Shown here piece after piece: positions 34,761 through 51,664 of a DNA stretch of 64,000 bases (the stretch's first letter is position 1; each line of letters begins with the position of its first letter). A program made the translations under genes and the position numbers. Source of the stretch: Paraglaciecola sp. MB-3u-78 (GTDB lineage Bacteria; Pseudomonadota; Gammaproteobacteria; Enterobacterales; Alteromonadaceae); the NCBI RefSeq assembly GCF_002835935.1, contig NZ_PJCF01000002.1:248001-312000 (forward strand), in the 5' to 3' direction. The notes beneath the pieces were generated by a model, which did not search any database, was not told where the DNA came from, and worked only from the letters and a program-made list of their open reading frames with translations.

Positions 34761-35510
34761 TTACCCCAGCTCCACCAAGTAATGATAATGATCACTTCGA
34801 CAGCGACTCAGTCTAAATTCAATTGCTTTGTTGTCTAGAGAATGAGTGACTCTTGTGACTTCGAGTAGGGGCTCCCCCTCTTGTATGCCTAACATCTCTG
34901 CGTCTTTTTTTGTGGCAAGTACAGCTTTGATACTGTCTCTGGTGACACGTACTGTTAGGTTAAATTGAGTTTGATAAAAATGGTAAAGGGTGTGAGGAAC
35001 TTCGGGTTGTTTTTCCAATATAGCAAAATACTTGTGTGGCAAAAAAATGGTTTCAGCCATACAAAACTCATCATTCAAAATTCGCCTTCTACTTAGCACT
35101 ATAACCTTTGCTGTAGCGTCTAATTCTAACGCTTGTGCAACTTGTTGTGTTGCCACTTGCGTTTCTACTGACAACAATTCCGCTTTGGGTAACTCAGGGG
35201 TTTTTCCATCTGCGATTAATGGGAAAAACCGATACAAACTGTGATGCCCAGTATACTCAGATACAAAGGTGCCAATACCTTGCTTACGGTTCAGAATTTT
35301 CGCATCAGTTAAGCTGTTTAGGGCCTTACGCACCGTGCCTTGGCTTACATTCAGCTCGCTCGCTAACTGAAACTCGTTTGGTAACATTTCACCGGGCTTC
35401 CAACGTTGTTCGACAATCAGTTGAGTCACATGTTCTTCAACTTGTTTGTATAAAGGTTGGAAAGCTAGCCCTGGATGGCTGAGTTTATTATCAAAACGAT
35501 TTTTATTCAT
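34761..35510 (-). CDS. GntR-family regulator (HutC/UTRA type)
   Basis: 249 residues from the ATG at 35510 (a TTG at 35525 is in frame). N-terminal wHTH (HVTQLIVEQRWKPGEMLPNEFQLASELNVSQGTVRKALNSLTDAKILNRKQGIGTFVSEY) and C-terminal UTRA ligand domain (RRRILNDEFCMAETIFLPHKYF, LYHFYQTQFNLTVRVTRDSIKAVLATKKDAEMLGIQEGEPLLEVTRVTHSLDNKAIEFRLSRCRSDHYHYLVEL). UTRA members usually sense sugars or small acids. It faces the GH31-TRAP operon, and TCTTATATAAGA-type palindromes stand before it and before its likely targets. Confidence 0.92.
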   Translation of the reverse strand: MNKNRFDNKLSHPGLAFQPLYKQVEEHVTQLIVEQRWKPGEMLPNEFQLASELNVSQGTVRKALNSLTDAKILNRKQGIGTFVSEYTGHHSLYRFFPLIADGKTPELPKAELLSVETQVATQQVAQALELDATAKVIVLSRRRILNDEFCMAETIFLPHKYFAILEKQPEVPHTLYHFYQTQFNLTVRVTRDSIKAVLATKKDAEMLGIQEGEPLLEVTRVTHSLDNKAIEFRLSRCRSDHYHYLVELG

Positions 35511-35559
35511 TAATGTAAACAGCAATTTAACATTTGTCTAGAGTAGTATTAACTATCAC

Positions 35560-35571
35560 TCTTATACAAGA
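35560..35571. promoter_or_regulatory. GntR operator, autoregulatory copy
   Basis: TCTTATACAAGA differs from the TCTTATATAAGA seen at three other places by one base. It lies about 50 bases before the regulator's ATG, so it probably mediates autoregulation. Confidence 0.65.
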
Positions 35572-35682
35572 TATTAAATGAATATTATCTCTAAAAAGTA
35601 TAGACATAAGTCATTGACCCCAAGCAGAAACACCTAAAAAAACTGACACATTACATTCATACCCATTGATTTTTCTCATCGA

Positions 35683-35726
35683 TTGACAAAAATTTAACAC
35701 TACTATAACTTGTGTCTTATATAAGA
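35683..35726 (+). promoter_or_regulatory. promoter and operator of the GH31-TRAP operon
   Basis: TTGACA (35683-35688), 17 bases, TAACTT (35706-35711), three bases, then the perfect palindrome TCTTATATAAGA (35715-35726) at the likely start of transcription. A TATAAC at 35704-35709 is an alternative -10 with a short spacer. The promoter of the aldo/keto reductase operon at 51664-51621 has the same elements at the same distances. The operator position predicts repression. Confidence 0.75.
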
Positions 35727-35837
35727 TTAATAATGCATTCTTTATTTATGTTTGATTGGCTCACTTAGCAGAAATGTTTAGGGATCAGTTTCTGATAAAT
35801 AAAATGTAGCGTTAAAAAAAACAATCCGAGGTTACTT

Positions 35838-37976
35838 TTGTCCGTGCTTACACCACCACTTGCTCCCGATCTTAACCTATCAGCCCCCGATTGGAACACT
35901 GTGTCCCAAGTGACAGTGATAGGTGAGGCTTATCTTGCTTATAATGCTGATGATGCTTCAATTATCATGCCGACTTCGGTTGGCTCGTTACATGTGAGTT
36001 TTCACTCATGTGGATTACGCCTTAGAATAGCAGGTAAGTCTAATGCCAATTATGAAATGCTACTACAAGAGCCTGAAACACGGCCTTGCGTTCTCAGTCA
36101 TTCAGAACAAAGTACCACCATCACCTGCGATAATTATGAACTGAACATTCAACATACTCCTTTTTCATTTAACCTCAGTTGCGATGGAAGAAGTGTTCAA
36201 AAAACGCCTAATGACGGGCATTTTGTTCGACAATACCGGATGCCACCTTTAGCAAAAACGGCTCAGGGTTGGTTGTTTAGCCTAGACTTAGGCGCAGAAG
36301 AAGCGGTATATGGGTTAGGCGAAAAATGGTCGAGTTTGAATAAACGCGGCCAATTTATTCGCTCATATAATCATGATGCCCTTGGGGTGAATGCCGAAGT
36401 CTCTTATAAAAACACCCCTTTTGCTTGGAGCCCATCTGGGTGGGGAGTATTTGTGCATACACCCGCTCCGGTAACTCACGCTGTCGGTTATGCTCCTTGG
36501 TCGCAAAGAGCTTACGGCTTGTTGGTTGAAGATGACGCGTTAGATATATTTATACTTAAAGGTAAAAATGGTGCTGAGATAATCCATCAATATACCGAAT
36601 TAACCGGCAAAGCACCGGTTCCGCCAGTGTGGAGTTTGGGGGTTATCTTATCTAAAGCCTATTACAAAGATGTACCCGAACTTATGGCAACCGCAAAAGC
36701 GGTGCGTGAACATAATATGCCTTGCGATGTGATCACTTTAGATGGACGCGCATGGCAAGATACCGACACACGCTTCGCTTTTGAATGGGATCCCAAACGA
36801 TTTGCCGACTTTCCGCCAAGTAAAGTCATTAATGACTTAAAGGCTATGGATTTTAAAGTCTGCATTTGGGAATACCCTCTAGTATCAGTTCAAAACCCCT
36901 TGTTTCAAGAGATGGCCAAAAAAGGCTGGTTACTCACCGACAAACGCACCGGCGAAGCGTACCGATATCAATGGGATATGAATGCCTTTGCCGAAGTGCT
37001 GACGCCATTACCCGAGTCTGGCATAGTCGATTTCACCCATCCCGACGCTTTTGACTTTTGGCTTGAATCACACAAGCCTTTATTCGACTTAGGCATAGAT
37101 ATGATCAAGGCCGATTTTGGCGAGCAAGTAGAAGATGACAATATGCTTGCCCATAACGGTGATTGTGGCCATCGATTACACAATGTGTATAGCCTGTTGT
37201 ATAACCGTTGTGTGTATCAAGCAGCTGAAAAATATAGCAAAACAGGCCCATTCTTATTTAGCCGCAGCGCTTGGACCGGGTCGCAACGCTACCCAAGTCA
37301 ATGGGGCGGAGATCCTCAGGCAGATTGGGGTGGTTTGATTGGTAGTATTCGTGGTGCTTTGTCTTGGGGAATGTCTGGTGCCCCTTATTTTGCCACTGAT
37401 GTGGGCGGTTTTTACAAAGACACCCGCGACTCAGAGTTATTTGTGCGCTGGTCGCAAACGGCTGTTTTTTCAGCCCATATGCGTCTTCACGGGATAGGGC
37501 AAAGAGAACCTTGGAGTTATAGTCCAGAGGCAGAAAATGCGGTTAATCAGGCGTTAAAACTCCGTTATCAGCTTATCCCTTATATTCAAACTGCCATGGA
37601 ACAAGCGAGTCAAACTGGTTTGCCCGTAATGCGGGCTATGGCCTTAGCCTTTCCTGATGACAGATTAGCCAGGGGTTTTGAAATACAATTTATGTTTGGT
37701 GACAATTTATTGGTGGTACCTTGCACCCAAGTCGGTGGCGAGGTGGAATTTTATCTACCTCAAGGCCAATGGTTGAGATTTCCCGAACAACAGGAGTTTA
37801 CTGGCGGCAGTGTTCACAAGTTGACATTAGCACTAGATGAAATAGCCGTGTTTGTTCCCGCTGGTCAGCAAATACCTATAGGTCCAAATGTGTTGCATAC
37901 CGAACAATTAGAACATCCTAAAATAGGTCAACAAATCAGTCATTACTGGCCAATCAAAGCTGCAAAGTCACTATGA
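35838..37976 (+). CDS. GH31 family alpha-glycosidase
   Basis: 712 residues, no signal peptide, so cytoplasmic. N-terminal beta domain, then the GH31 barrel: VWSLGVILSKAYY, nucleophile Asp426 in IKADFGEQ, acid/base Asp492 in PSQWGGDPQADWGG, and MSGAPYFATDVGGF. Overall closest to the YicI alpha-xylosidase type. The -1 site differs, with DGRAWQD where YicI has Asp-Cys-Phe-Trp-Met-Lys. It lacks the Tyr of YihQ-type sulfoquinovosidases (DIGGY; here DVGGF). It starts at TTG 35838 (GAGG upstream) and overlaps the TRAP gene by ATGA. Its natural substrate is not settled: an alpha-glycoside taken up intact. Confidence 0.88.
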   Translation: MSVLTPPLAPDLNLSAPDWNTVSQVTVIGEAYLAYNADDASIIMPTSVGSLHVSFHSCGLRLRIAGKSNANYEMLLQEPETRPCVLSHSEQSTTITCDNYELNIQHTPFSFNLSCDGRSVQKTPNDGHFVRQYRMPPLAKTAQGWLFSLDLGAEEAVYGLGEKWSSLNKRGQFIRSYNHDALGVNAEVSYKNTPFAWSPSGWGVFVHTPAPVTHAVGYAPWSQRAYGLLVEDDALDIFILKGKNGAEIIHQYTELTGKAPVPPVWSLGVILSKAYYKDVPELMATAKAVREHNMPCDVITLDGRAWQDTDTRFAFEWDPKRFADFPPSKVINDLKAMDFKVCIWEYPLVSVQNPLFQEMAKKGWLLTDKRTGEAYRYQWDMNAFAEVLTPLPESGIVDFTHPDAFDFWLESHKPLFDLGIDMIKADFGEQVEDDNMLAHNGDCGHRLHNVYSLLYNRCVYQAAEKYSKTGPFLFSRSAWTGSQRYPSQWGGDPQADWGGLIGSIRGALSWGMSGAPYFATDVGGFYKDTRDSELFVRWSQTAVFSAHMRLHGIGQREPWSYSPEAENAVNQALKLRYQLIPYIQTAMEQASQTGLPVMRAMALAFPDDRLARGFEIQFMFGDNLLVVPCTQVGGEVEFYLPQGQWLRFPEQQEFTGGSVHKLTLALDEIAVFVPAGQQIPIGPNVLHTEQLEHPKIGQQISHYWPIKAAKSL

Positions 37977-38515
37977 TTAAGTTACAGCAAACATTGTTCG
38001 CGATTAATACGCCATTGGGCAAGTTCAACTATGCCGTGGCGAGTGTAGCCAAGAACTTAGCCGGTGGATTACTTGCGCTGATGTTAGGCATGATACTGGC
38101 GCAGGTATTTTTTCGTTATGTACTTAACGATTCATTAGCTTGGACCGAAGAACTGGCAAAGTTTGCCATGGTTTGGGTAGCCTGTTTAGTGGCACCTTGG
38201 GCGTATCGTGCGCACTTAAATGTGTCTATCCAAATGTTTGCCGATGCACTACCGGCAGTTTTACGCAGGATCACTGAACTGCTGATCACCTTATTAGTGA
38301 TGGTAATTTGCGGTATATTTTTTCTGCAAAGTTTAGAGTTTTGGCAAACAGGCCTGAGTATCAACGCGTCGTCTGTGCCCGTCAAATTAGCTTATTTTTA
38401 TAGCTGTGCGCCTTTTGCTTTTGGCTCCATTTGTCTGGTTGGCTTAGAAAAACTTATCGAGCAATTATGCTTGCCCTTAGATCATTGCTTCGTACCACAA
38501 CAGGACGCCACCTAA
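37973..38515 (+). CDS. TRAP transporter small permease (DctQ type)
   Basis: 180 residues, four membrane helices: LAGGLLALMLGMILAQVFFRYVLNDSLAWTEELAKFAMVWVACLVAPWAYRAHLNVSIQMF is the DctQ signature with the conserved W-T-E-E-L and H. It is the small membrane subunit that pairs with DctM. ATG overlaps the GH31 stop, and the DctM gene follows after one base, so all are translationally coupled. Confidence 0.93.
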   Translation: MIKLQQTLFAINTPLGKFNYAVASVAKNLAGGLLALMLGMILAQVFFRYVLNDSLAWTEELAKFAMVWVACLVAPWAYRAHLNVSIQMFADALPAVLRRITELLITLLVMVICGIFFLQSLEFWQTGLSINASSVPVKLAYFYSCAPFAFGSICLVGLEKLIEQLCLPLDHCFVPQQDAT

Positions 38516-38516
38516 T

Positions 38517-39803
38517 ATGTCATTAAGTTACTTTTGGGTATTTATTTTATTGCTAACCGCCGGTGCACCGGTCATTTTTGCATTGTTAATTGGCCCTGGG
38601 GTCAGCCTAATTTTAGACGGTAAGGAAGTGTTCTTCTCTGCCCTATTAAATAGACTTTACTCAGGCATGAACTCTTTTCCTTTGATGGCAGTGCCATTTT
38701 TTATACTCGCTGGCGAACTGATGAATCAAGGGGGGATCACCCAGTCAATTGTGCGTTTTAGCCAAACCTTAATAGGCCACTATCGAGGCGGATTAGCACA
38801 AGTGAATATTTTATCTTCAGTGTTATTTGCAGGTTTGTCTGGCTCAGCGGTAGCAGATACTTCGGCCCTAGGTAAAATGCTTATTCCAGCCATGGAGCAA
38901 AACGGTTACAGCAGACGTTTTGCTGCAGCGGTGACTGCTGCATCATCAGTCATTGGCCCTATTATTCCCCCCTCTGGCATTATGATTTTATACGCATTTA
39001 TTATGAACGTATCAGTCGCAGGCATGTTTTTGGCCGGTATAGTGCCGGGCATATTGATTTGCGCAGGTTTGATGTTAATGACCAGCTATATTGCCAAAAA
39101 GCGAAATTACCCCATTGCGAATGCCAAAGCCACTTGGCATGAGCGCGGCAGTGCATTCAAAAGCTCATTTTTACCGCTGTTAACACCCGTCATTTTGTTA
39201 GGTGGCATAGTGTTAGGGGTATTTACCCCCACTGAAGCCGCCGCAGTAGCAGCAGGTTACGCCCTGATTATCACTTTATTTGTGACCCACACTCTCAAAT
39301 TTAATAAGTTGCCTACTATATTAGTGAATGCCGCTGTGCAGTCTGGGACTATCCTGCTGTTAGTTGGCTCAGCGGTAACTTTTGCTTGGATCATTACCGT
39401 ATCGGGAATGGCCGATACGCTCGCCTCTGAAATAATGGGGATCACCGATAATGTATTGTTACTGCTGCTGATCATCAACTTATTTTTATTTGCCATAGGC
39501 ATGTTCTTAGATGCAGGGCCCGCTATCTTAATTTTAGGCCCAGTACTCGCTCCTATATTTATCTCTCTAGGCATAGACCCGTTGCACTTTGCGGTGATCA
39601 TGTGCGTGAATTTAACCGTGGGGCTTGCCACACCACCTATGGGTTTAGTGTTGTTTGTTGCTGCTGCGGTGTCAGGTGAAAAAACTGAAAATATTGCCTT
39701 AGAAATGCTGCCCTTTTTAGCAGTAGAAGCGACCGTCATCTTTCTGATCACCTACTTCCCAGCCCTAACGATGACCTTACCTACATTTTTTGGATTCGCT
39801 TAA
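38517..39803 (+). CDS. TRAP transporter large permease (DctM type)
   Basis: 428 residues, 12 or more helices, with PFFILAGELMNQGGITQSIVRF, GLSGSAVADTSALGKMLIPAMEQNGYSRRFAAAVTAASSVIGPIIPPSGIMILYA and VNLTVGLATPPMGLVLFVAAAVSGE, all hallmarks of DctM. It forms the Na+-coupled transport channel. TRAP systems of the sulfonate/carboxylate kind (taurine, isethionate, sulfopropanediol) are known, which suits a sulfonated substrate. Confidence 0.94.
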   Translation: MSLSYFWVFILLLTAGAPVIFALLIGPGVSLILDGKEVFFSALLNRLYSGMNSFPLMAVPFFILAGELMNQGGITQSIVRFSQTLIGHYRGGLAQVNILSSVLFAGLSGSAVADTSALGKMLIPAMEQNGYSRRFAAAVTAASSVIGPIIPPSGIMILYAFIMNVSVAGMFLAGIVPGILICAGLMLMTSYIAKKRNYPIANAKATWHERGSAFKSSFLPLLTPVILLGGIVLGVFTPTEAAAVAAGYALIITLFVTHTLKFNKLPTILVNAAVQSGTILLLVGSAVTFAWIITVSGMADTLASEIMGITDNVLLLLLIINLFLFAIGMFLDAGPAILILGPVLAPIFISLGIDPLHFAVIMCVNLTVGLATPPMGLVLFVAAAVSGEKTENIALEMLPFLAVEATVIFLITYFPALTMTLPTFFGFA

Positions 39804-39810
39804 AATGCAA

Positions 39811-40074
39811 GGGGCTGTTTATCTTTCATATGTCGCCGAGATTTTCCTCAAAAGGTGTTCAATCAAGGCAAAATCTGTGAAGTTTGGCCATCCAAATAAA
39901 CAGGTTTTAACGCCGAGTGAATGCGTTTTGAGGAAAACCCTAAAGGGCTGGGCCATTTATTCGCCTATCTTCGTTGTTTACCTTTCGTTTAGAATAACTA
40001 AACTTCAAGGCAAACGCCTCGCTATCCAAAAAAATGACCTCAGTCTCGGTGATATATGAAAAATCAACAGCCCC
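39811..40074. repeat. MITE-like foldback element
   Basis: A 264-bp interval between the DctM and DctP genes is bounded by imperfect 30-bp inverted repeats (39811-39840 and 40045-40074, 26 of 30 positions match), opening GGGGCTGTT. Inside lies another inverted pair, TTTTCCTCAAAA (39842-39853) and TTTTGAGGAAAA (39926-39937). No transposase frame is present. The right end covers the ATG of the DctP gene, so the element supplies its ribosome site region. Confidence 0.7.
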
Positions 40075-41111
40075 TATTAAAACGCTTAATTTTACTGGTT
40101 ATTTATGGACTGATTGCCATTGGCTGCTTAGTGGGAATTTTTCGAGCGAGTGTGACTCAAGCAGAATTTACGATTAAAGCCTCGATTCAAGCCTCCACTC
40201 AAGATGAAGATTATATTGGCCTGTTGGCATTCAAAGAGTATGTGGAGAAGACCAGCAACGGCCGGGTGCAAGTCCAGTTGTATGCCTCAGGACAATTTTG
40301 CGGCAGCGTACCCGAATGTATTGGCAGTTTGCAATCAGGTGTCTTGGAAATGTTCCCCAGCACAGCAGGTGGTACCGGTAACTTTTTCGCACCCGCCCAA
40401 GTCTTGGATTTACCCTATGTGTTTACCAGTGACGCACAGGCTGAGTGTGTATTAGATGGGCCTATTCTGCAAAAAATGCGAGAAACCGTGCTGGACAAAG
40501 GCTTAAATATTCGTTTGATTGGTGTATCGAATACCGGTGGTTGGCGTAACTTTGCCACTACCAATAAACCTATTCACAGTCCAGCAGACCTAAAAGGTCA
40601 GAAAATTCGCACTACTCCAGCGGATATTCAGCAAGAGTTGGTCAGACAATTAGGTGCAAACCCTACCCCAATTTCTTGGGCTGAACTCTATACTGCTTTA
40701 GCAACAGGTGTAGTTGAAGGCAGTAAAAACGGCATTCAAGATATAATCGGCGCTAAGTTACAAGAACACTTAAAATATATCATTCTTGATGGGCACTCAT
40801 ACATGGCGACGCTATGGTGGTTTTCTGAACCCGTGTGGAAAACGTTACCAGAAGATATTCAGCAAATTGTACTAGAGGGATTCGCTAAACAAAAAGCGGC
40901 AGCCAGTGAATTAGTTGCCACTGAGGAAAGTAATTCTTATAAAATTTTTGAGGAAGCAGGTGGCACTATTTACCGCCCTTCTATTGCAGAGAAACAAGCT
41001 TTTAAAGATGCGTCGGTCAACATGCGTCAATGGTTTATCACTAATTTTGGACAAGAATGGTTAAATTTATTGGAAACCTCAGTTGAGCAATGTAACGCAA
41101 GTATTAATTAA
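40056..41111 (+). CDS. TRAP transporter substrate-binding protein (DctP type)
   Basis: 351 residues with an N-terminal helix (LLVIYGLIAIGCLVGIF) as signal peptide or anchor. DctP fold: EYVEKTSNGRVQVQLYASGQFCG, MFPSTAGGTGNFFAPAQVLDLPYVF, the conserved Arg in LKGQKIRTTPADIQQELVRQLGANPTPISWAELYTALATGVVEG. The Arg usually binds the substrate's carboxylate or sulfonate. It catches substrate in the periplasm for the DctQM permease upstream. Confidence 0.92.
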   Translation: MKNQQPLLKRLILLVIYGLIAIGCLVGIFRASVTQAEFTIKASIQASTQDEDYIGLLAFKEYVEKTSNGRVQVQLYASGQFCGSVPECIGSLQSGVLEMFPSTAGGTGNFFAPAQVLDLPYVFTSDAQAECVLDGPILQKMRETVLDKGLNIRLIGVSNTGGWRNFATTNKPIHSPADLKGQKIRTTPADIQQELVRQLGANPTPISWAELYTALATGVVEGSKNGIQDIIGAKLQEHLKYIILDGHSYMATLWWFSEPVWKTLPEDIQQIVLEGFAKQKAAASELVATEESNSYKIFEEAGGTIYRPSIAEKQAFKDASVNMRQWFITNFGQEWLNLLETSVEQCNASIN

Positions 41112-41198
41112 TACAGGTCATCACACACAGACAATTAACTTCCAGGCAACAAAATGATTGCATATTGTTAACTTAGAGGTTAAATTTTCCTACGTCTT

Positions 41199-41216
41199 CT
41201 GTCTTATATAAGACAG
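41199..41216. promoter_or_regulatory. GntR operator before the TonB receptor
   Basis: CTGTCTTATATAAGACAG is a perfect 18-bp palindrome containing the same 12-bp core as the other three sites. It is about 140 bases upstream of the receptor's ATG. No TTGACA at the distance seen at the other two promoters was found. Confidence 0.7.
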
Positions 41217-41355
41217 TTAAAATAAAAACAAATAAAATAACAATAATAATTGGTGCAGCCATCCAATAACACATAAGTCGTTACTCCAGTAGTTGAAACA
41301 CTTTCACTGGAGCGCGGTTACAAACTAGATAAAGAACAAATCTTGGGAAAACACT

Positions 41356-43770: not shown

Positions 43771-43790
43771 GCTAACTTTAGTGTGTGTTG

Positions 43791-43828
43791 GCGCTCTGCT
43801 TCTGATGAAGTTAGAGCGCTTTTTTTAT
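43791..43828 (+). terminator. terminator of the TonB receptor gene
   Basis: GCGCTCT, loop with an inner CTTC/GAAG pair, AGAGCGC, then seven T. It lies 21 bases after the receptor stop. Confidence 0.85.
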
Positions 43829-43871
43829 GGGTTTTAAATGTCTGCGTGTCTGTCCCCTCTATGTCAGATGA

Positions 43872-43973
43872 GTATTAAGACATGGTGTTGAGACAATCAA
43901 TGAATGTTTCAGACATGCACACAAAGCACTATATCAAGCCAAAGAACAAGGTCGAAATCAGTTAGTCCTCTAA
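43872..43973 (+). pseudogene. GGDEF domain C-terminal fragment
   Basis: The frame after TGA 43869-43871 reads GVETINECFRHAHKALYQAKEQGRNQLVL and stops at TAA 43971-43973. This is the C-terminal end of a GGDEF domain (RADxALYxAKxxGRNxxV). The Asp of the usual HRADKALY is His here. The rest of the gene is missing. Third GGDEF-related sequence in the window that is only a fragment or relic, counting the one at 16299-16558. Confidence 0.68.
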
Positions 43974-44003
43974 ACGCTATAACCTCTACTAAATATATGT
44001 ATA

Positions 44004-45242
44004 CTAAACCGTCTTAAAATGCCGTTTGTGCCAACGGATAGTCAATGGTACTGAGAGATTCAGCATAAAAGCGACCAACATTAAGGTGTAAAAAGCCTCT
44101 ACTGACATAATGTGATGCTGGACATAAGCAATATCCATGACCACAAATGCTAGCTCTGCCCTACCCAACATGCCAAAACCAATCATCCAACTGGCGGGCC
44201 AATCAAAGTTACCCGTGTAACGAGCCGCAAGAGCAGCAGAGAGCACTTGACCTATGAAAAGTCCTACAAACAGCATCAATGCCTCAGGCAATACAGATAG
44301 AAAAGTATCTAGGTCAAACAAAAGCTTGCTGCCTAAAGCGACAAAAAATACTGGGCCAATCCACGAAAAGGCAACATTGTCGATAATTTCCCTAGCTTGT
44401 TGATAATAATCTTTGTCTTCATCTTTATGAAAATCAAAATACTCTCGATGAATGATCAGTCCAGCCATATACGCACCGACTGCTGGGTGGAAGCCAAATT
44501 CATGTGCCAACAGCCCCACTAATACGGCAATCAGTAACAAAGACAGGACAGTGTATTCCCCTTTCGCCATAGCCAAGACTTTGCGTAAATTGAGTTTGCC
44601 CAACAGAGGGATTTTCCGAGTAATGCCCTGACTGGCAGGAAATAACCACCCACCCATCACTGTCACAAGGGCAAAAAACGCCACCGCTTTACCTAAAACT
44701 AACAAGATACCTTGAATAGAAACGGTCGCTTCGCCAGTAGCAATAGGCACTAGGATCGCGACTAATGCCAGTGAAGCAATGTCGTCAAGTACTGCAGAGG
44801 TCATTATCCCTGTTGCCGCAAGTGTATTATTTAGCCCTTCACTCTTCAGTGAAACCATGGTTAAGGACACGGCTGTAGCCATCATTGCCAAGCCACAAAA
44901 AAGTGATGTGTTAGCGTCCCCCCAATAAATATTGGCCGCGCAGTAACCTATTGCAAAAGGCGTGATAGCACCAAAAAATGCAATCCCCCAACTACGTTTA
45001 ATACCTTGCAAAAAATTAGCCGTGTTCTCCTCGAAGCCCAAAGCAAACATGATAATAATGATCCCCAGTTCAGCGAAATCAACAATGAATACTGGCAACA
45101 CTTCAGGTAAAAATCCTATATTTACAAAAAGGGCACCACAAAACAGATACCACAGAACAGGGGTCAAGCGTGTTTTATGTGCAAGGTATGACGCAAAAAA
45201 GACGGTTGTCCAGACAAGAGCCAGAACTGCAATGTCATGCAT
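44004..45242 (-). CDS. CPA2-type cation:proton antiporter, no RCK domain
   Basis: 412 residues, about 12 helices. The Na/H exchanger core is complete (PVLWYLFCGALFVNIGFLPEVLPVFIVDFAELGIIIIMFALGFEENT, GIMTSAVLDDIASLALVAILVP, EFGFHPAVGAYMAGLIIHREYF, GMLGRAELAFVVMDIAYV), but the usual TrkA-N/RCK tail is missing. The neighbour at 45396-46631 supplies a separate RCK protein. A GGAG ribosome site precedes the ATG. Role: K+ or Na+ extrusion. Confidence 0.85.
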   Translation of the reverse strand: MHDIAVLALVWTTVFFASYLAHKTRLTPVLWYLFCGALFVNIGFLPEVLPVFIVDFAELGIIIIMFALGFEENTANFLQGIKRSWGIAFFGAITPFAIGYCAANIYWGDANTSLFCGLAMMATAVSLTMVSLKSEGLNNTLAATGIMTSAVLDDIASLALVAILVPIATGEATVSIQGILLVLGKAVAFFALVTVMGGWLFPASQGITRKIPLLGKLNLRKVLAMAKGEYTVLSLLLIAVLVGLLAHEFGFHPAVGAYMAGLIIHREYFDFHKDEDKDYYQQAREIIDNVAFSWIGPVFFVALGSKLLFDLDTFLSVLPEALMLFVGLFIGQVLSAALAARYTGNFDWPASWMIGFGMLGRAELAFVVMDIAYVQHHIMSVEAFYTLMLVAFMLNLSVPLTIRWHKRHFKTV

Positions 45243-45395
45243 AATAATCTCCAGTGACTATATGCCAATATACCCCAGTCAATTTTTATAATATTGATGT
45301 TGATCAGCACTATAGTCATTCACACGAGTATCTATAATCGTTGCAGGTTATTTATTGGATTTGAATAGGGTAAAACTATCCTGAGCTCTGGATAT

Positions 45396-46631
45396 CTAGG
45401 GAGTCATCCAGTCGATGGGGAAATTATCTTTGACTAACTGGTTAATACTCACATTTAAAATGTTGTATTGCTCACCGACATTTTCAGCAAACCTTGATGG
45501 TAAATAACTGCGAGCGATTATCATTGAATCTGGGTATTTGTTTTTTAGCCACAAAGAAGTTCTAAAGTTTTCTTCAACAGAATCGGTACATAAAATGATA
45601 ATGGGTTGAGTGTTAGTCAAGTCCACTTTGGAACGCAATTGCTGCCACACTTCTGGATGAGAAATATTACCCTCGAATATTTCTCTGTTACAAAAATTGG
45701 CTAATTGGTGTTGTTCGTCCACAACCTGAATTCGTCGTTTGGCATCAATACCAATAATCGCAATAGTAGCAATTTCTTTTTGTGCATAGTGTTGCAGTTC
45801 TTCAAGTATCGTTTGACCAAACAAACCAAAACCGGCAATCACTACGACATCCTTGGGTACCGTTTGCACGAAGTGCGAAATCAAATGTTGTTGCACTAAA
45901 GCCGATGCGGCCAACTGGTAGGCATTAAAATTGATACATTGTTTGGCTACCGCAGAGTCAGCCATGGAACGCATAAAACGAATACTATTGCAGTGAATAA
46001 TAATTTTGCCCTTTAATGAGGGTTGTAACTGCAAAATTTTATAGGCGGCTTCATAATTTTGAAAATTATCTTTGCCAAGTAATACTACTTTTTTAGCTCT
46101 ATGCAGAAATAATTTAGATAAAAAATAACTACGGGTAATATCGCCAGTGATCACCATAGCGTGATAGCGGCGTTTTAATTCTTCTTCGCGTATAGGTGAA
46201 ATTTCATCACATATGATCAGCAATGGGATCTTAGGTTGTAACAACCTAAGTTGTTTTAAATAGGTAATAGTCAATTCGTCTGAGCCGGAAACCACTATAT
46301 GATTACTGATCCGCCGAAAATGCCATTTGTAAGGAGAAATGGTTTTAATTACCGCTTCAATGATGGTGGATGCGGCCAACATTGGTGACGCAAAATAACT
46401 TAGCCACAACATCAAGCGGGCATATAAGGGGCCGTCAACAGGCGTGCCTATATCCAGTCCACCCATCACAAATAAACCCAAACTGTAATAGGCTTTAGTT
46501 AGCATATCTGCAGTTTGAACATCTGGCCGCTCTGATAACGACACTCCCATCATCAAAGCCAAGAAAGCACAAAGAAAAAGTACCGCGGCAGCAGACCATC
46601 TCCAACTATAATTCATTGTTAGTAAAGACAT
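45396..46631 (-). CDS. membrane-anchored two-RCK channel-like protein
   Basis: 411 residues from the ATG at 46631 (AGGTGG upstream; a GTG three codons earlier also in frame). Two N-terminal helices with a pore-like loop (YYSLGLFVMGGLDIGTP), a third helix region (LMLWLSYFASPMLAASTIIEAV), and two Rossmann RCK/TrkA-N domains: HIVVSGSDELTITYLKQL (about residue 113) and DVVVIAGFGLFGQTILEEL (about 262). This is the tandem-RCK K+ channel architecture, although the usual TVGYG filter is not clear. Possibly works with the antiporter downstream. Confidence 0.75.
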   Translation of the reverse strand: MSLLTMNYSWRWSAAAVLFLCAFLALMMGVSLSERPDVQTADMLTKAYYSLGLFVMGGLDIGTPVDGPLYARLMLWLSYFASPMLAASTIIEAVIKTISPYKWHFRRISNHIVVSGSDELTITYLKQLRLLQPKIPLLIICDEISPIREEELKRRYHAMVITGDITRSYFLSKLFLHRAKKVVLLGKDNFQNYEAAYKILQLQPSLKGKIIIHCNSIRFMRSMADSAVAKQCINFNAYQLAASALVQQHLISHFVQTVPKDVVVIAGFGLFGQTILEELQHYAQKEIATIAIIGIDAKRRIQVVDEQHQLANFCNREIFEGNISHPEVWQQLRSKVDLTNTQPIIILCTDSVEENFRTSLWLKNKYPDSMIIARSYLPSRFAENVGEQYNILNVSINQLVKDNFPIDWMTP

Positions 46632-46914
46632 ACGGCCCACCTTTGAGTGTAAAATAAAAATAGTAAACTAATTCCACTAAGTTCACAGCCCATATAAACG
46701 ACATATAAAAACCACTGTGAACATCACTTAATTTTCTTCACTCTTAGGAATAGCAATTCACTCTAATCATACCTGACAACATAGGTGTGATGCTAAAGTG
46801 AATAGTATTAATAGGACCGCCTTGTCCTTTCTCATTAAAATAGAGTTATATTGAGATACCAATACCAGAGTTCAGATGCGACCCTAAGCAAAAAGGCTAT
46901 AGGTAAAGATTTGG

Positions 46915-47286
46915 CTACTTTAGCACAGGCAACAAGTGGCTTGGTATAGGAGAGCGGCGACTGACAGCTATGGGGCTGTAATGGGTTTCGAGGTAATCGA
47001 GAATTTGTTGCTCTTGAGCACCAAGTGGCCACAACCCTTGAGATTTTTGCATCCAGCGGATCGTTTCTAACCAATTATCTCGCGTCATACGATTTTGCGT
47101 CACCAGTTTTGCAGAATGGCAAGCGGTGCAATGAGCGCGCACAATTTCATAGTTTTCACCTATGACAAAACCTGTGATGGGGTCGTAAGTTGTTTTCTCT
47201 TCTGCCTGTATCGATAATACGCTTGTACTCAGCCCAAGCACGAACAGCACAAACATCGGCATACGCCGAATGTTAATTGAGTACAC
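46915..47286 (-). CDS. c-type cytochrome, SorB-like
   Basis: About 123 residues from a GTG at 47286 (ATG at 47262 and 47320-47322 are alternatives; the GTG follows the preceding stop by one base and has AGGTTG upstream). Signal peptide MFVLFVLGLSTSVLSIQA and one haem motif CTACHS, then LVTQNRMTRDNWLETIRWMQKSQGLWPLG and Met residues as distal ligands. It is placed straight behind the SorA-like gene, the arrangement of sulfite dehydrogenase SorAB, where it takes the electrons. Confidence 0.82.
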   Translation of the reverse strand: MYSINIRRMPMFVLFVLGLSTSVLSIQAEEKTTYDPITGFVIGENYEIVRAHCTACHSAKLVTQNRMTRDNWLETIRWMQKSQGLWPLGAQEQQILDYLETHYSPIAVSRRSPIPSHLLPVLK

Positions 47287-47287
47287 C

Positions 47288-48574
47288 CTAAACAACCTGC
47301 ACAGCGATGCGATGGCAGGCATTATTTAAGTAACCCTTTGGATTCCATCCAGGTAACACCATCGGCTGACTCTTTCCGTCGCTGTCAGTGGCTTTGGCCC
47401 ACACTTCGTAATACCCTTTCTGTGGGAACAACAAAGTACTGTGCCAATGTTGCCAAGCATTGCGGTTTACTGCTTTCGTTAATTTAGCCGGCTGCCAAGT
47501 TTGACCAAAATCTATTGATACCTCGACTTTAGCAACCTGTTTATCACCTGCCCAGGCGTGGCCATTAACATCTAGTTTGTTAGTCAATGGGTGTAATTCA
47601 CCTGATTTGGGATAAGTGACTAAGGACTTCACTGGCATAGCATGAATGATACACATATCTTCATCTGCTACTTTGGCGCCTGGAGCCACTGTTTTACAAG
47701 GCACACGATAGGCGGTTCCGACCATTTTGGCGCCATCATGCACTTGATTGCGGATCACAATTTTGTCTAACCATTTGCCTGAGGTAGACGCTGGCCAACC
47801 ACCGAACACTAATCGCAACGGATAACCATTCATAGCAGGTAAATCTTGGTCATTCATCGCCCATGCGATCAGCGATTCATTTTCTAACGCTTTATTTATC
47901 GGTACCCCACGTGAAATGGGATCTTTGTTCGGGTCGCCACTTAAATGAGTGTCTTTCCCATAATAACCAATGTAAACGGCATCCTCTTTTAAACCGACAT
48001 CTTTTAATACATCAGCTAAACGTATACCGGTCCATTTAGGGCAACCCACTGCGCCGTTAGTCCACTGATTACCTTTAGCAGACGGGCTGAATTCAGAACG
48101 TCCATTGCCACCGCATTCTAGAGTTAACTGATAAGTGTAATGGGTAAAACGCTGCTTAAGTTCTGCCAAGGTATATGTTTTACTTTGCTCAACTGACTCC
48201 CCAGCAATAGTCAGTGTCCAATTTTCAATATCAATTTTTTGTGGCGGTATACCATTATTACGTACAAACAGTTTGTCCGCAGGTGTCACTTCATCGTTAA
48301 GTAAATGAGCAGGGGTTTCGGCATTGATAGGTCGGTCATTTAACACCACCAATCCTGAGTCTTTACCGGGGATCACAAAAGGTGTCAATGTCTGGGCAAA
48401 AGCGACGGGGATAAATCCAGCTGGCATAAAGCGAGCAAACACTATTTCACTACCAATTACTGTGGTTATGGTGGCTAGACTAGATAAAAAACCACGCCTG
48501 TTCATGGGTTGTTTGCGATTTAGCTGATGTTTAACAGTGGATACTTTTGTTTGCTTGCCATTGATATCGCTCAT
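47288..48574 (-). CDS. SorA-like molybdopterin sulfite dehydrogenase
   Basis: 428 residues with a Tat signal (MNRRGFLSSLATIT, Arg-Arg about residues 26-27). The Mo-binding Cys is in YQLTLECGGNGRSEF, followed by TNGAVGCPKWTGIRLADVL, SRGVPINKALENESLIAWAMNDQDLPAMNGYPLRLVFGGWPASTSGKWLDKIVI, and a C-terminal Ig-like dimerisation domain with VEVSIDFGQTWQPAKL. This is the sulfite oxidase family, SorA type, exported folded to the periplasm. It oxidises sulfite to sulfate and passes electrons to the cytochrome downstream. AAGG ribosome site. Confidence 0.9.
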   Translation of the reverse strand: MSDINGKQTKVSTVKHQLNRKQPMNRRGFLSSLATITTVIGSEIVFARFMPAGFIPVAFAQTLTPFVIPGKDSGLVVLNDRPINAETPAHLLNDEVTPADKLFVRNNGIPPQKIDIENWTLTIAGESVEQSKTYTLAELKQRFTHYTYQLTLECGGNGRSEFSPSAKGNQWTNGAVGCPKWTGIRLADVLKDVGLKEDAVYIGYYGKDTHLSGDPNKDPISRGVPINKALENESLIAWAMNDQDLPAMNGYPLRLVFGGWPASTSGKWLDKIVIRNQVHDGAKMVGTAYRVPCKTVAPGAKVADEDMCIIHAMPVKSLVTYPKSGELHPLTNKLDVNGHAWAGDKQVAKVEVSIDFGQTWQPAKLTKAVNRNAWQHWHSTLLFPQKGYYEVWAKATDSDGKSQPMVLPGWNPKGYLNNACHRIAVQVV

Positions 48575-48589
48575 ATAAGACCTTGAGGG

Positions 48590-49567
48590 TTAAATGTAAG
48601 GTAAACTTAGGAGGATCAAAATAGCGATCCACAACGTTTCTAAAACGATGAGTAAAATGGGTTTTAGTCCCACTTCGAGCATTTGCCCCAGATTCGATTT
48701 CATGCCAATAGCGGCAATGGCAATCACTAAAGCAAAACGTGAAATGTCGGTGGCACCTTTAGTCACCATCTCTGGTAAATCTACAAAGCTGTTAATTGTC
48801 ATTAACACTACAAAGGCGATTAAAAAGGCAGGAATACCTGGCGCTTTTGCATCTGAGGTTTTATCTAGGTTCATCCTCAACACCAGTAATATACACACCA
48901 CTACAGGCATTAAAAACGCCACTCGGACTAACTTAGTGACGGTAGCCAAATCACCCGTTTGCTCTGATACTGAATATCCCGCTCCTACTACCTGCGCTAC
49001 ATCATGGATAGTACCGCCTAAAAAGATACTGGTATGAGTTGGACTCAGATTCAGTATCTGGGCCACTATTGGGTACATCACCATTGCCACTGTAGACAAT
49101 GCGGTAACCACAACAATAGTCAAAAGGGTGTCGCGGTCTTTATCTTTACTATCGGGTAACACAGCGGCAATGGCCATGGCCGCGGAAGCCCCACATATAC
49201 CTACCGCGCCCCCAGTTAATACACCAAAACGTTTTTGTAAACCTAGGGCTTTGGCTGCAACAATACCAAGACCAATAGTGCTGGTAATAGCCACTACCAG
49301 CAACAATGCCGTTTGCCAACCTAGCGCCGCCAAATCACCAAAGGCAATACGTAAGCCTAATAACCCAACACCTATCCGCAAAATATGACAGGCGGTAAAT
49401 TCAATACCCTCTTTGCATGTTGTGCCTTCATACAAAAACGACATAGCAATACCTAAGAGCAAGGCAAATAACATTGCAGGTGCGCCATAATGTTCACTTA
49501 AGAACAGTGCGGCTAGACCAACAATGACAGAAATTAAAACACCCGGCAGCTTTGTTTTTATATTCAA
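48590..49567 (-). CDS. YeiH-type putative sulfate/sulfite exporter
   Basis: 325 residues, about ten membrane helices; the start is TTG at 49567. Conserved YeiH/PSE segments are APAMLFALLLGIAMSFL, ILRIGVGLLGLRIAFGDL, VLTGGAVGICGASAAMAIAAVLP and LGGTIHDVAQVVGAGYSVS. Family members are linked to export of sulfite or sulfate in sulfonate-degrading bacteria. Here it lies between a dioxygenase and a sulfite dehydrogenase, which suits export of sulfite for periplasmic oxidation. 15 bases before the SorA-like gene. Confidence 0.87.
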   Translation of the reverse strand: MNIKTKLPGVLISVIVGLAALFLSEHYGAPAMLFALLLGIAMSFLYEGTTCKEGIEFTACHILRIGVGLLGLRIAFGDLAALGWQTALLLVVAITSTIGLGIVAAKALGLQKRFGVLTGGAVGICGASAAMAIAAVLPDSKDKDRDTLLTIVVVTALSTVAMVMYPIVAQILNLSPTHTSIFLGGTIHDVAQVVGAGYSVSEQTGDLATVTKLVRVAFLMPVVVCILLVLRMNLDKTSDAKAPGIPAFLIAFVVLMTINSFVDLPEMVTKGATDISRFALVIAIAAIGMKSNLGQMLEVGLKPILLIVLETLWIAILILLSLPYI

Positions 49568-49621
49568 TTTATTGGCTCATGTGGTCTGTAAAGGTTGTCG
49601 AAAATAACCGTTAATACTCGT

Positions 49622-50605
49622 TTAGTCTATGGCTAAAGCCACCAGCACTTGGCGCTTGCGCTCACCGGAAAATGGGCGTCTGCCATGCATAGCCATATAA
49701 TTATCGACTAAAGCTACATCGCCGTCCTGCCAAGGCAAATCAAAAGTGTACTTTTCAGACAATTTCACTGCCAGATGTAAACCTTCGATTGGGATAGCAG
49801 TACCATCACCAAACGTAATGGCACTGGAAGGATTTTCACGTACCCCTTTCCAGCCCATAAATGCTGCAATCAATTGATTATAAAATACTTTTTTCTCATT
49901 ACCCATATCGATCACAGCAGGTAATACTGGCGTAGTAGCCCGTAAACTGCCATCCGCAAGCCATTCCCAGCTATAGCCTAACTCAGCCAATTTTTGTTCG
50001 GCTTGGGCAGCATTTTGTACACTTAACGTGCTCTTCCAACTGCGTCCTTGTCCTGAGTTAGGATCATCTTCTGCTGGCATCTGAGTGGTATATTTAAGAC
50101 CTTTACTCATAAAATCAGCAGCTAACTCTGGCATTTGTTTCGCTAAGTCTGCGAACAACATATCGGAGCGACATAGAGGTGTTTCGCCACCTTCCTCGGC
50201 AGCACTTTTACAAAAGAAAAACAATTTGCTTGGCGAGATAGGCGTTTGTGCCATTTCATGATGTAGGAATATTTCCACATCTTTTGGCGCTTCATTGGCG
50301 GTGAATACACGTTCGGTGAAGTTTATCCTAACGGCATTCGACAAAGATTCTTTGTAAGTAAAATTCGGATAACCAAAAGAATTTGAGAATTCATCAAAAG
50401 TTTCAGCCGAATTGACAGGAAACCCTCTGAATAAAATCGCACCTGTTTCACGTAACTTAGCCTCAAGTTCACTCAGATTTGATTTAATCCAGTGGGCACA
50501 TTCTTGTTGTGTTGTCAGCGAACCATCGTTAACCACAACACTAGGAAAAACTGAATCTCCACAGTCTAATTGATGTGGCACTTCTACATAATTAATCGGT
50601 TGCAT
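49622..50605 (-). CDS. TauD/SyrP-like Fe(II)/2-oxoglutarate dioxygenase
   Basis: 327 residues, strong GGGAGAG ribosome site. The metal site is H115-x-E117 (IFLHHEMAQ), a His-x-Glu in place of the common His-x-Asp, and distal His307 (YMAMHGRRPFSGERKRQVLV), with Arg317/319 positioned for 2-oxoglutarate. PSKLFFFCKSAAEEGGETPLCRSDMLF matches the SyrP-like branch of TauD/TfdA. Between an aldo/keto reductase and a sulfite exporter, it is the likely C-S bond-cleaving enzyme: sulfonate + 2-oxoglutarate + O2 to aldehyde + sulfite + succinate + CO2 (inference). Confidence 0.85.
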   Translation of the reverse strand: MQPINYVEVPHQLDCGDSVFPSVVVNDGSLTTQQECAHWIKSNLSELEAKLRETGAILFRGFPVNSAETFDEFSNSFGYPNFTYKESLSNAVRINFTERVFTANEAPKDVEIFLHHEMAQTPISPSKLFFFCKSAAEEGGETPLCRSDMLFADLAKQMPELAADFMSKGLKYTTQMPAEDDPNSGQGRSWKSTLSVQNAAQAEQKLAELGYSWEWLADGSLRATTPVLPAVIDMGNEKKVFYNQLIAAFMGWKGVRENPSSAITFGDGTAIPIEGLHLAVKLSEKYTFDLPWQDGDVALVDNYMAMHGRRPFSGERKRQVLVALAID

Positions 50606-50619
50606 AAGCTGAACTCTCC

Positions 50620-51579
50620 CTAATCGTAAATGGGATAAAAAGTATTAAAGGCAGCTTCACAGAAATTTCCCGGATCATTAAATCGCCTATTACTGTTGAG
50701 CGCTGAAATTCCTTCCATCTCTTGTGAAGTCAGTTCGAAATCAAATATATCTAAATTTTCTTTTAAACGCTCGGGACGAGATGTTTTTGGAATAATAGCG
50801 TTACCCCGTTGAATCCCCCAACGTAATACGACTTGTGCTGCCGTTTTGCCTAATCTTTGTGCTGCTTGTTTAACCACAGTCTGTTCTAACACAGACTCTG
50901 CCGCACCAGCCATATCCAGCTCTAAATATGATAATGCGCCAAGTGGCGAGAAAGCGGTAACCTGAAGATCATATTGAGTGGCTAAACGCATCAAACGTTC
51001 TTGGGTTAAATAAGGGTGGGATTCCACTTGTAATACCGAAGGTTTAACACGGGCATAAGACATCAAATCATGCAACAAACCGGTGTTGTAGTTACATACA
51101 CCGATTTGTTTGACTAGGCCTTGTTCGTATAAGGCTTCCATAGCTTGCCATGTTTCAAACAAGGGCACCGGTGCTAATTCCATTTTGCCAACAGCAGTAT
51201 CGGTGATCCACTCAGGTGGATAACGATCTTCAAAATCCACAAAGGGTTGTGCGATAGGGAAATGTATCAAATATAAATCGAGATAATCTAACTGCAGATC
51301 AGCCAAGGTTTTTTCTAAAGCAGGCTTTACATGGGCTTTAGCATGATAAGTATTCCACAGCTTAGAGGTCACCCATAAATCTTCGCGAGTACACAGGCCA
51401 TCATCAATAGCACGTTTAATACCCTCACCTACTTGCACCTCGTTACCGTAATCGCAAGCACTGTCTAAATGACGATACCCAGCCTTAATGGCGTTATACA
51501 CTGCATTTGCACAGATATCTTGAGGTATTTTCCAAAGACCAAAGCCAACCTTTGGCATCTTTTTATGACTATTTGGCAT
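50620..51579 (-). CDS. aldo/keto reductase
   Basis: 319 residues, NADPH-dependent TIM barrel with an intact tetrad: Asp39 and Tyr44 in HLDSACDYGNE, Lys73 in VTSKLW, His106 in LIHFP. IPKTSRPERLKENLDIFDFELT and the C-terminal RFNDPGNFCEAAFNTFYPIYD match xylose-reductase-type (AKR2) enzymes. First gene of the operon with the dioxygenase (14-base gap), YeiH, SorA- and SorB-like genes. In a dioxygenase pathway it would reduce the aldehyde left after C-S cleavage, for instance 6-oxo-glucose to glucose (inference). Confidence 0.9.
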   Translation of the reverse strand: MPNSHKKMPKVGFGLWKIPQDICANAVYNAIKAGYRHLDSACDYGNEVQVGEGIKRAIDDGLCTREDLWVTSKLWNTYHAKAHVKPALEKTLADLQLDYLDLYLIHFPIAQPFVDFEDRYPPEWITDTAVGKMELAPVPLFETWQAMEALYEQGLVKQIGVCNYNTGLLHDLMSYARVKPSVLQVESHPYLTQERLMRLATQYDLQVTAFSPLGALSYLELDMAGAAESVLEQTVVKQAAQRLGKTAAQVVLRWGIQRGNAIIPKTSRPERLKENLDIFDFELTSQEMEGISALNSNRRFNDPGNFCEAAFNTFYPIYD

Positions 51580-51620
51580 CTATTGTTTCCAATTAATAAA
51601 ATGTGAATTTTGATTTTGTA

Positions 51621-51664
51621 TCTTATATAAGACTTAAGTTAAGTGAATGCTTAAACTTTGTCAA
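51621..51664 (-). promoter_or_regulatory. promoter and operator of the reductase-dioxygenase operon
   Basis: On the minus strand: TTGACA at 51664-51659, 17 bases, TAACTT at 51641-51636, three bases, TCTTATATAAGA at 51632-51621, then about 41 bases to the ATG at 51579. The same elements at the same distances stand before the GH31-TRAP operon (35683-35726). This points to shared regulation by the GntR protein. Confidence 0.78.

Follow-up and report, generated by a model that had tools for sequence, protein, structure and literature searches.

The breakdown of sulfoquinovose, a sulfur-containing sugar of plants and algae, by marine bacteria is represented by the sulfo-ASDO/SDO pathway, which relies on a dioxygenase and a reductase and is presented, in passages of two articles, as characteristic of Oceanospirillaceae and Alteromonadaceae (PMC12890257, PMC13372026). 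The exemplars named in those passages are SqoD and SquF from Marinobacterium aestuarii (Ye et al., 2023, via PMC12890257 and PMC13372026). Sulfoquinovose can be released from its glycosides by the sulfoquinovosidases SqgA of glycoside hydrolase family 188 (GH188; PDB 8qc3 and 8qc2); according to excerpts of that work, the sulfonate is held by Arg166, Leu170 and Lys172 of ArSqgA, and the assayed GH188 enzyme is specific for sulfoquinovose (PMC10755693). A third point of comparison is SdhR, a GntR regulator of the HutC subfamily, for which a published study gives the operator TCTTATGTCTTATATAAGACATAAGA (Suvorova et al., 2015; PMC4494728). Herein, a window of 64,000 nucleotides from Paraglaciecola sp. 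MB-3u-78 (NZ_PJCF01000002.1, positions 248,001-312,000, forward strand) is analyzed, in which a 12-bp palindrome, TCTTATATAAGA, or a close variant, precedes a GntR gene, a GH31-TRAP operon, a TonB-dependent receptor gene and an aldo/keto reductase (AKR)-dioxygenase operon. Judged from sequence, the genes behind these four promoters very probably import and break down sulfoquinovose, and we consider it likely, with good confidence, that they form a sulfo-SDO-type sulfoquinovose regulon controlled by the HutC-type GntR protein.

Operator sites and their candidate regulator

A scan of the window located exact copies of TCTTATATAAGA at 35715-35726, 41202-41213 and 51621-51632, and the one-mismatch form TCTTATACAAGA at 35560-35571, about 35 bp upstream of the GntR gene (no strand is assigned to this site or to that at 41202-41213, which precedes the TonB receptor). 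This agrees with the preliminary description, which had placed the palindrome before the GntR gene with one mismatch, before the GH31-TRAP and TonB receptor genes, and before the AKR operon 16 kb away. The identical promoters claimed for the two enzyme operons were likewise recovered, as the layout TTGACA-N17-TAACTT-N3-palindrome is exact at both. At the GH31-TRAP operon (35683-35726, plus strand) the -35 box lies at 35683-35688, the -10 box at 35706-35711 and the operator at 35715-35726; at the AKR-dioxygenase operon (51664-51621, minus strand) the corresponding positions are 51664-51659, 51641-51636 and 51632-51621. With up to two mismatches, the window contains nine matches against 4.27 expected, a number reached by 2 of 100 shuffles, so weight is placed only on exact and one-mismatch sites. 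In the genome (6,478,889 bases in 87 contigs) the exact 12-mer occurs four times: three copies lie within 16 kb of one another in this window and the fourth at C5:88435. Wide occurrence of the palindrome at unrelated genes, which had been named as refuting a regulon, is thus not seen. At up to one mismatch, 15 places were found in the genome versus 39 for the pattern read backwards, and inspection of the one-mismatch sites by eye revealed no convincing additional regulon gene.

The same arrangement was followed through 80 named loci, the best of 171 relatives from a single dioxygenase scan, most of them from Alteromonadales and others from Colwellia, Cellvibrionales, Balneatrix, Pokkaliibacter, Erythrobacter, Hellea, SAR86 and further groups. 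Within about 350 bp of those gene starts that could be placed (starts were estimated by BLAST, so distances are approximate), the exact 12-mer precedes the TonB receptor in 26 of 29 loci, with one mismatch in 2 more; GH31 in 20 of 32 (4 more); the GntR gene in 15 of 28 (2 more); and AKR in 32 of 70 (13 more). No exact copy was found upstream of DctP in 11 loci. The complete promoter layout occurs 43 times in 28 of the 80 loci, 30 times with the exact 12-mer and 13 times with TCTTATACAAGA. Among 77 distinct contexts of exact sites, 72 lie within 420 bp upstream of AKR, GH31, GntR, TonB receptor, SulP or sulfo-ED-type dehydratase genes; the other five precede glpK, a glpD-like gene, another TonB receptor and two places with no clear link. 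The glpK and glpD-like sites (L130:1467 and L173:2233, about 18 and 20 bp before the genes, in two different genomes) fit growth on sulfoquinovosyl glycerol, from which glycerol is released.

Furthermore, the genomes of 44 of the 80 loci, picked by hand to span the list, were searched for the 12-mer and for the GntR protein (E<=1e-25). Both were present in 27 genomes and neither in 16; one genome (G015, a 2.5-Mb assembly) had the 12-mer alone, and none had the GntR gene alone. The 28 genomes with the exact 12-mer contain 78 sites, compared with six for the reversed pattern. Upstream of the 28 GntR genes in the 27 genomes, an exact site falls within 450 bp in 20 cases and a one-mismatch site in four; the remaining four genes, a second copy in G029 among them, have no site there. 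Balneatrix and Pokkaliibacter each have no more than two exact copies per genome, which lie on separate contigs, one at AKR and the other next to the GntR gene. From a second draw, which took in 369 class members, came six further dioxygenase-positive genomes, which may overlap with the first loci; four carry the GntR gene, each with a site at the cluster (G059 has another 36 kb away), one (G686) has neither, and one (G719), with a dioxygenase of 37% identity, lacks the GntR gene and has a single distant site. The sites, their spacing, their joint occurrence with the GntR gene, their conservation and their genomic partners are direct observations on these genomes; they point to the neighboring GntR protein as the probable reader of the palindrome, and lend comparative support to the single regulon that had been proposed.

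The GntR/HutC-type regulator, a candidate repressor, is encoded at 34761-35525 on the minus strand and combines a GntR helix-turn-helix with a UTRA domain (Pfam). The one paper found by a full-text search of the literature for the 12-mer is the SdhR study, whose published operator has the same core and flanks as the sites described here (PMC4494728). The symmetrized consensus of 88 sites, exact or with a one-base variant, is TTATG-TCTTATATAAGA-CATAA. The extended form GTCTTATATAAGAC occurs in 20 of 398 genomes of a phylum-wide draw, the own genome included, in neighborhoods with mdh, GntR and sdhC (by eye), isocitrate lyase (Pfam for one) or the sulfosugar cluster. The recognition helix VSQGT[VM]RKA is present in all 39 GntR proteins compared (the window protein, with VSQGTVRKA, 28 orthologues and 10 from the phylum draw), whereas three own-genome paralogues, matching at E 4e-22 or weaker, have SRVT or SRMT in the helix. 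Because operator core, CTTATG/CATAAG flanks and recognition helix are shared with SdhR, as is the pairing of GntR and UTRA domains, the GntR protein likely binds the palindrome. It is best assigned to the SdhR operator class and not taken for SdhR itself, because its gene adjoins GH31, whereas SdhR-like genes adjoin mdh and sdhC, and it is 30-35% identical to their products. Another local regulator of sulfoquinovose genes is CsqR (YihW) of E. coli (PMC10991401). CsqR is a DeoR-type and not a GntR protein, and belongs to another operon and pathway.

Probable sulfoquinovose pathway and its glycosidases

The operon on the minus strand begins with an aldo/keto reductase (50620-51579, profile match), a candidate 6-dehydroglucose reductase, followed by a TauD/clavaminate-synthase-like Fe(II)/2-oxoglutarate dioxygenase (49622-50605; Pfam, PDB match and alignment), a candidate sulfoquinovose dioxygenase. 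H115, E117 and H307 of the dioxygenase are invariant across 28 aligned sequences, and an AKR gene is found in 72 of the 80 loci, usually directly before the dioxygenase. Five structures of one TauD-type protein (PDB 9yut-9yux) are the second-best PDB match of the dioxygenase (E 3e-63). An Fe/2-oxoglutarate dioxygenase, an NAD(P)H reductase, sulfite as the predicted product and occurrence in marine Gammaproteobacteria, Alteromonadaceae included, are the traits shared with the sulfo-SDO pathway as outlined in the cited passages. The set here differs from the known pathway in having a GntR operator common to GH31, TRAP and TonB genes 16 kb apart, and in the addition of a SorA-like oxidase.

The link to sulfoquinovose is strengthened by the glycosidases that accompany the dioxygenase. 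In locus L185 of the second draw, the dioxygenase-reductase pair is joined by a Gfo/Idh/MocA protein that matches the SqgA structures 8qc3 and 8qc2 at about 1e-96. GH188-like relatives of this protein (30-49% identical) occur at 26 of the 80 dioxygenase loci, and at 20 of these 26 the reductase is found as well; all 26 proteins contain Arg-x3-Leu-x-Lys, the spacing of the sulfonate-binding residues of SqgA. A GH31 protein of the window type is found with the dioxygenase in 37 loci, and no locus has both glycosidases. As GH188-like and GH31 genes never share a locus, GH31 appears to take the place of the sulfoquinovosidase.

The GH31 gene (35838-37976, plus strand) would thus encode a glycosidase partner of a sulfoquinovose pathway, as YihQ and SqgA do; it is unrelated to GH188 and nearest to the alpha-xylosidase YicI. 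It scores 430.7 bits with the YicI model and 205 with a model of cut-off 553, which we take to be that of the E. coli YihQ type; with YicI so far above YihQ, a YihQ orthologue is ruled out. The catalytic aspartates are conserved, and the protein has a segment of its own, DGRAWQDTxTRFxFEWD, present in 34 of 34 aligned members (the last D in 33), whose two arginines, R304 and R312, are absent from YicI at that place. In YihQ, the sulfonate of the substrate is bound by Arg301, Trp304 and Tyr508; by eye R312 lies near Arg301, and MAFFT and hhalign place it differently. Both arginines are kept in a 44% identical homologue on a Deinococcus plasmid (L170:8893-11079), beside an L-fucose-isomerase-like gene, a PfkB kinase, a tagatose-bisphosphate aldolase and an aldehyde dehydrogenase, enzyme families from which we take the cluster to be sulfo-EMP2-like. 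The review passages bearing on sulfo-EMP2 name it for Firmicutes only, with hybrids elsewhere. The YicI-like GH31 is offered as a candidate sulfoquinovosidase, new as far as the literature search reached.

Several observations weigh against a sulfoquinovose regulon of this scope. The match to sulfo-SDO is one of families and context, SqoD and SquF having been compared by description, and the GH31 protein falls below the cut-offs of both glycosidase models. Neither glycosidase is present in 17 of the 80 loci, and the GH188 assignment was checked against PDB for one protein, to which five of the 26 are only 30-35% alike. Operator and pathway are not tied everywhere, because no site with up to two mismatches lies upstream of AKR in 25 of 70 loci and the operator is absent from all 26 GH188 loci (compared with its presence in 35 of 37 GH31 loci); the GH31 loci L047 and L051 have neither site nor GntR gene. 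In the window itself, the TonB receptor promoter lacks the -35/-10 layout seen at the two enzyme promoters, and genes like SorA and SorB were not found at the same place in the close relatives L016, L018 and L020. The fourth own-genome site (C5:88435-88446; L098:13436-13447), some 15 bp upstream of a YHS-domain gene with a signal-like N-terminus, has no evident link to the regulon, and such a gene stands at none of the five extra exact sites in relatives. In addition, the genomes compared are related to one another, so that the counts are not independent and no probability is attached to them.

Gene content of the window and proposed mechanism

The order, strands and families of the genes are as set out in the preliminary description, the families being confirmed for 10 of 11 proteins. 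GH31 is followed on the plus strand by the TRAP genes for the small permease DctQ (37973-38515, Pfam), the large permease DctM (38517-39803, Pfam and profile match) and the solute-binding protein DctP (40056-41111, Pfam), most similar among PDB sequences to an isethionate-binding DctP (E 3.6e-40). The 250-base gap between DctM and DctP (39804-40055) shows apparent inverted repeats by eye. The TonB-dependent receptor follows at 41356-43770 (plus strand, Pfam). Between the halves of the regulon, 44004-46640 contains two ion-transport-type genes; in a BLAST table L016 has both and L017, L018 and L020 only one, as if the stretch were in the process of loss, or had been inserted. Many Alteromonas loci carry GH31, GntR and AKR-dioxygenase-YeiH-SorA-SorB together in a single cluster, and the divided layout of the window therefore looks like a rearrangement.

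Downstream of the dioxygenase, the minus strand encodes a YeiH-family putative sulfite/sulfate exporter (48590-49567, Pfam and profile match), a SorA-like molybdenum sulfite dehydrogenase with an RRGF (Tat-like) N-terminus (47288-48574), and an overlapping gene for a small protein with a CxxCH heme motif (CTACH), a candidate cytochrome partner of SorA (46915-47322) for which no Pfam match was found. SorA is the best model for the dehydrogenase, at 249 bits against a cut-off of 600. The SorA/SorB-like genes (46915-48574) are present in the window and in L017, and sulfite disposal differs between relatives, with YeiH, TauE-type or SulP genes and with or without SorAB.

The mechanism that we infer extends to binding, repression over activation, the ligand, cell location, enzyme activities and the order of steps. 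The GntR protein would repress its own gene, the GH31-TRAP operon, the TonB receptor and the AKR-dioxygenase-YeiH-SorAB operon through the palindrome; repression is the simplest reading because the operator starts 3 bp past the -10 box at the enzyme promoters, a position in which bound protein would mask the transcription start. A sulfosugar-derived ligand at the UTRA domain may release it. The TonB receptor and TRAP transporter would take up sulfoquinovosyl glycerol or sulfoquinovose, and cytoplasmic GH31 would yield free sulfoquinovose, which the dioxygenase may convert to sulfite and 6-dehydroglucose and the reductase further to glucose. Sulfite would be exported by YeiH and oxidized in the periplasm by SorAB. 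The uptake, hydrolysis, desulfonation and sulfite disposal proposed earlier are consistent with this scheme, gene context favoring a sulfosugar pathway that releases sulfite. The comparison supports several refinements: a known sulfo-SDO pathway, a GH31 outside the YihQ clade, an SdhR-class operator and variable genes for sulfite disposal.

Alternative readings and possible reuse of the switch

It might be supposed that the palindromes arose by chance in AT-rich promoter sequence and have no regulator in common, as two-mismatch matches in the window reach only about twice expectation and one-mismatch places in the genome are fewer than for the reversed pattern. With three of the four exact genome copies lying here, 78 sites against six in the 28 genomes, and 72 of 77 distinct sites preceding genes of the same kinds, the probability of this is negligible, and an origin by chance or as promoter sequence only is ruled out by these genome, 28-genome and site-context counts. 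The sites could instead be read by another regulator, or the GntR protein could sense central carbon metabolites, so that the genes follow carbon state and not a sulfosugar. In other genomes the operator is also found before mdh/GntR/sdhC (by eye) and before isocitrate lyase genes, SdhR relatives presumably sense carbon metabolites, and four of 28 GntR genes have no nearby site. This alternative is nevertheless unlikely, since none of the four own-genome exact sites is at a tricarboxylic acid (TCA) cycle gene, the next own GntR paralogue is only 30% identical (E 4e-22) with a different recognition helix, and a site is present in all 27 genomes that have this GntR protein.

A real regulon might also serve another 6-sulfo-hexose, such as sulfofucose, or a different sulfonated glycoside. 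A sulfofucose pathway is described in one report (PMC12421959), the GH31 is not YihQ-like, and its two alignments with YihQ differ at the sulfonate site. Set against this are the 26 of 80 loci in which the dioxygenase is accompanied by GH188-like proteins (20 with the reductase), a family whose assayed member is SQ-specific, and the occurrence of the same regulator class at a sulfo-ED set with homologues near YihQ and at a GH188 cluster (L191). A different substrate is therefore improbable, slightly more so than control by carbon state or another regulator, and a sulfoquinovose regulon remains the preferred reading.

In Balneatrix (G030), a GntR orthologue (51% identical) and a site lie between aldehyde dehydrogenase/lactonase/SDR genes and dehydratase/aldolase/TRAP genes. 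The dehydratase, aldolase, lactonase, aldehyde dehydrogenase and SDR are 62, 41, 51, 62 and 55% identical to those of a cluster in Shinella sp. HZN7, which also has a YihQ relative (49.5%) and a TSUP exporter; by this sequence comparison, the five-gene set is a sulfo-ED gene set. The claim rests on all five genes, because dehydratase identity alone is no proof: the NCBIfam label for the dehydratase alone is L-arabinonate dehydratase, and among the 30 plasmid matches listed (of 865 records), 20 have a listed YihQ match within 10 kb and 10 do not, one inspected match of these 10 being in a different cluster. Furthermore, in the high-GC locus L191 (genome G341), a 36% identical GntR protein with a site has as neighbors a GH188-like gene (49%) together with an aldehyde dehydrogenase (58% identical to that of Shinella) and a YeiH relative (38%). 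L191 also encodes a protein that by eye resembles the altronate/galactarate-dehydratase-type protein of L145, the family to which we take SuyB to belong.

Altogether, it seems somewhat more probable than the converse that the SdhR-class regulator-operator pair is a portable sulfosugar switch, found with sulfo-SDO in Alteromonadales and Cellvibrionales-like genomes, with sulfo-ED plus sulfo-SDO in Balneatrix (and in Pokkaliibacter, as far as the cluster was seen) and with GH188, sulfolactaldehyde-dehydrogenase-like and SuyB-like genes in the high-GC genome, and that YicI-like GH31 is a second, independent sulfoquinovosidase lineage, present also in the sulfo-EMP2-like Deinococcus cluster. A term search of PMC12890257 and PMC13372026 turned up neither GntR nor any other regulator, and a literature search at title and abstract level found no GntR, operator, TonB receptor or TRAP tied to the dioxygenase route, although this may partly be in print. 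As far as that search reached, reuse of the GntR operator at sulfo-SDO, sulfo-ED and GH188-type clusters is new; the pathway is known and the SdhR operator core published, and the regulator, the use of the operator and the glycosidase look new. If the reading is true, a repressor class of TCA type has been redeployed for the control of sulfosugars. The 12-mer would then be a marker by which genes for uptake, glycosidases and sulfite export, unlinked ones included, may be found directly in marine genomes, and the regulon predicts a new clade of GH31 sulfoquinovosidases together with an outer-membrane receptor.

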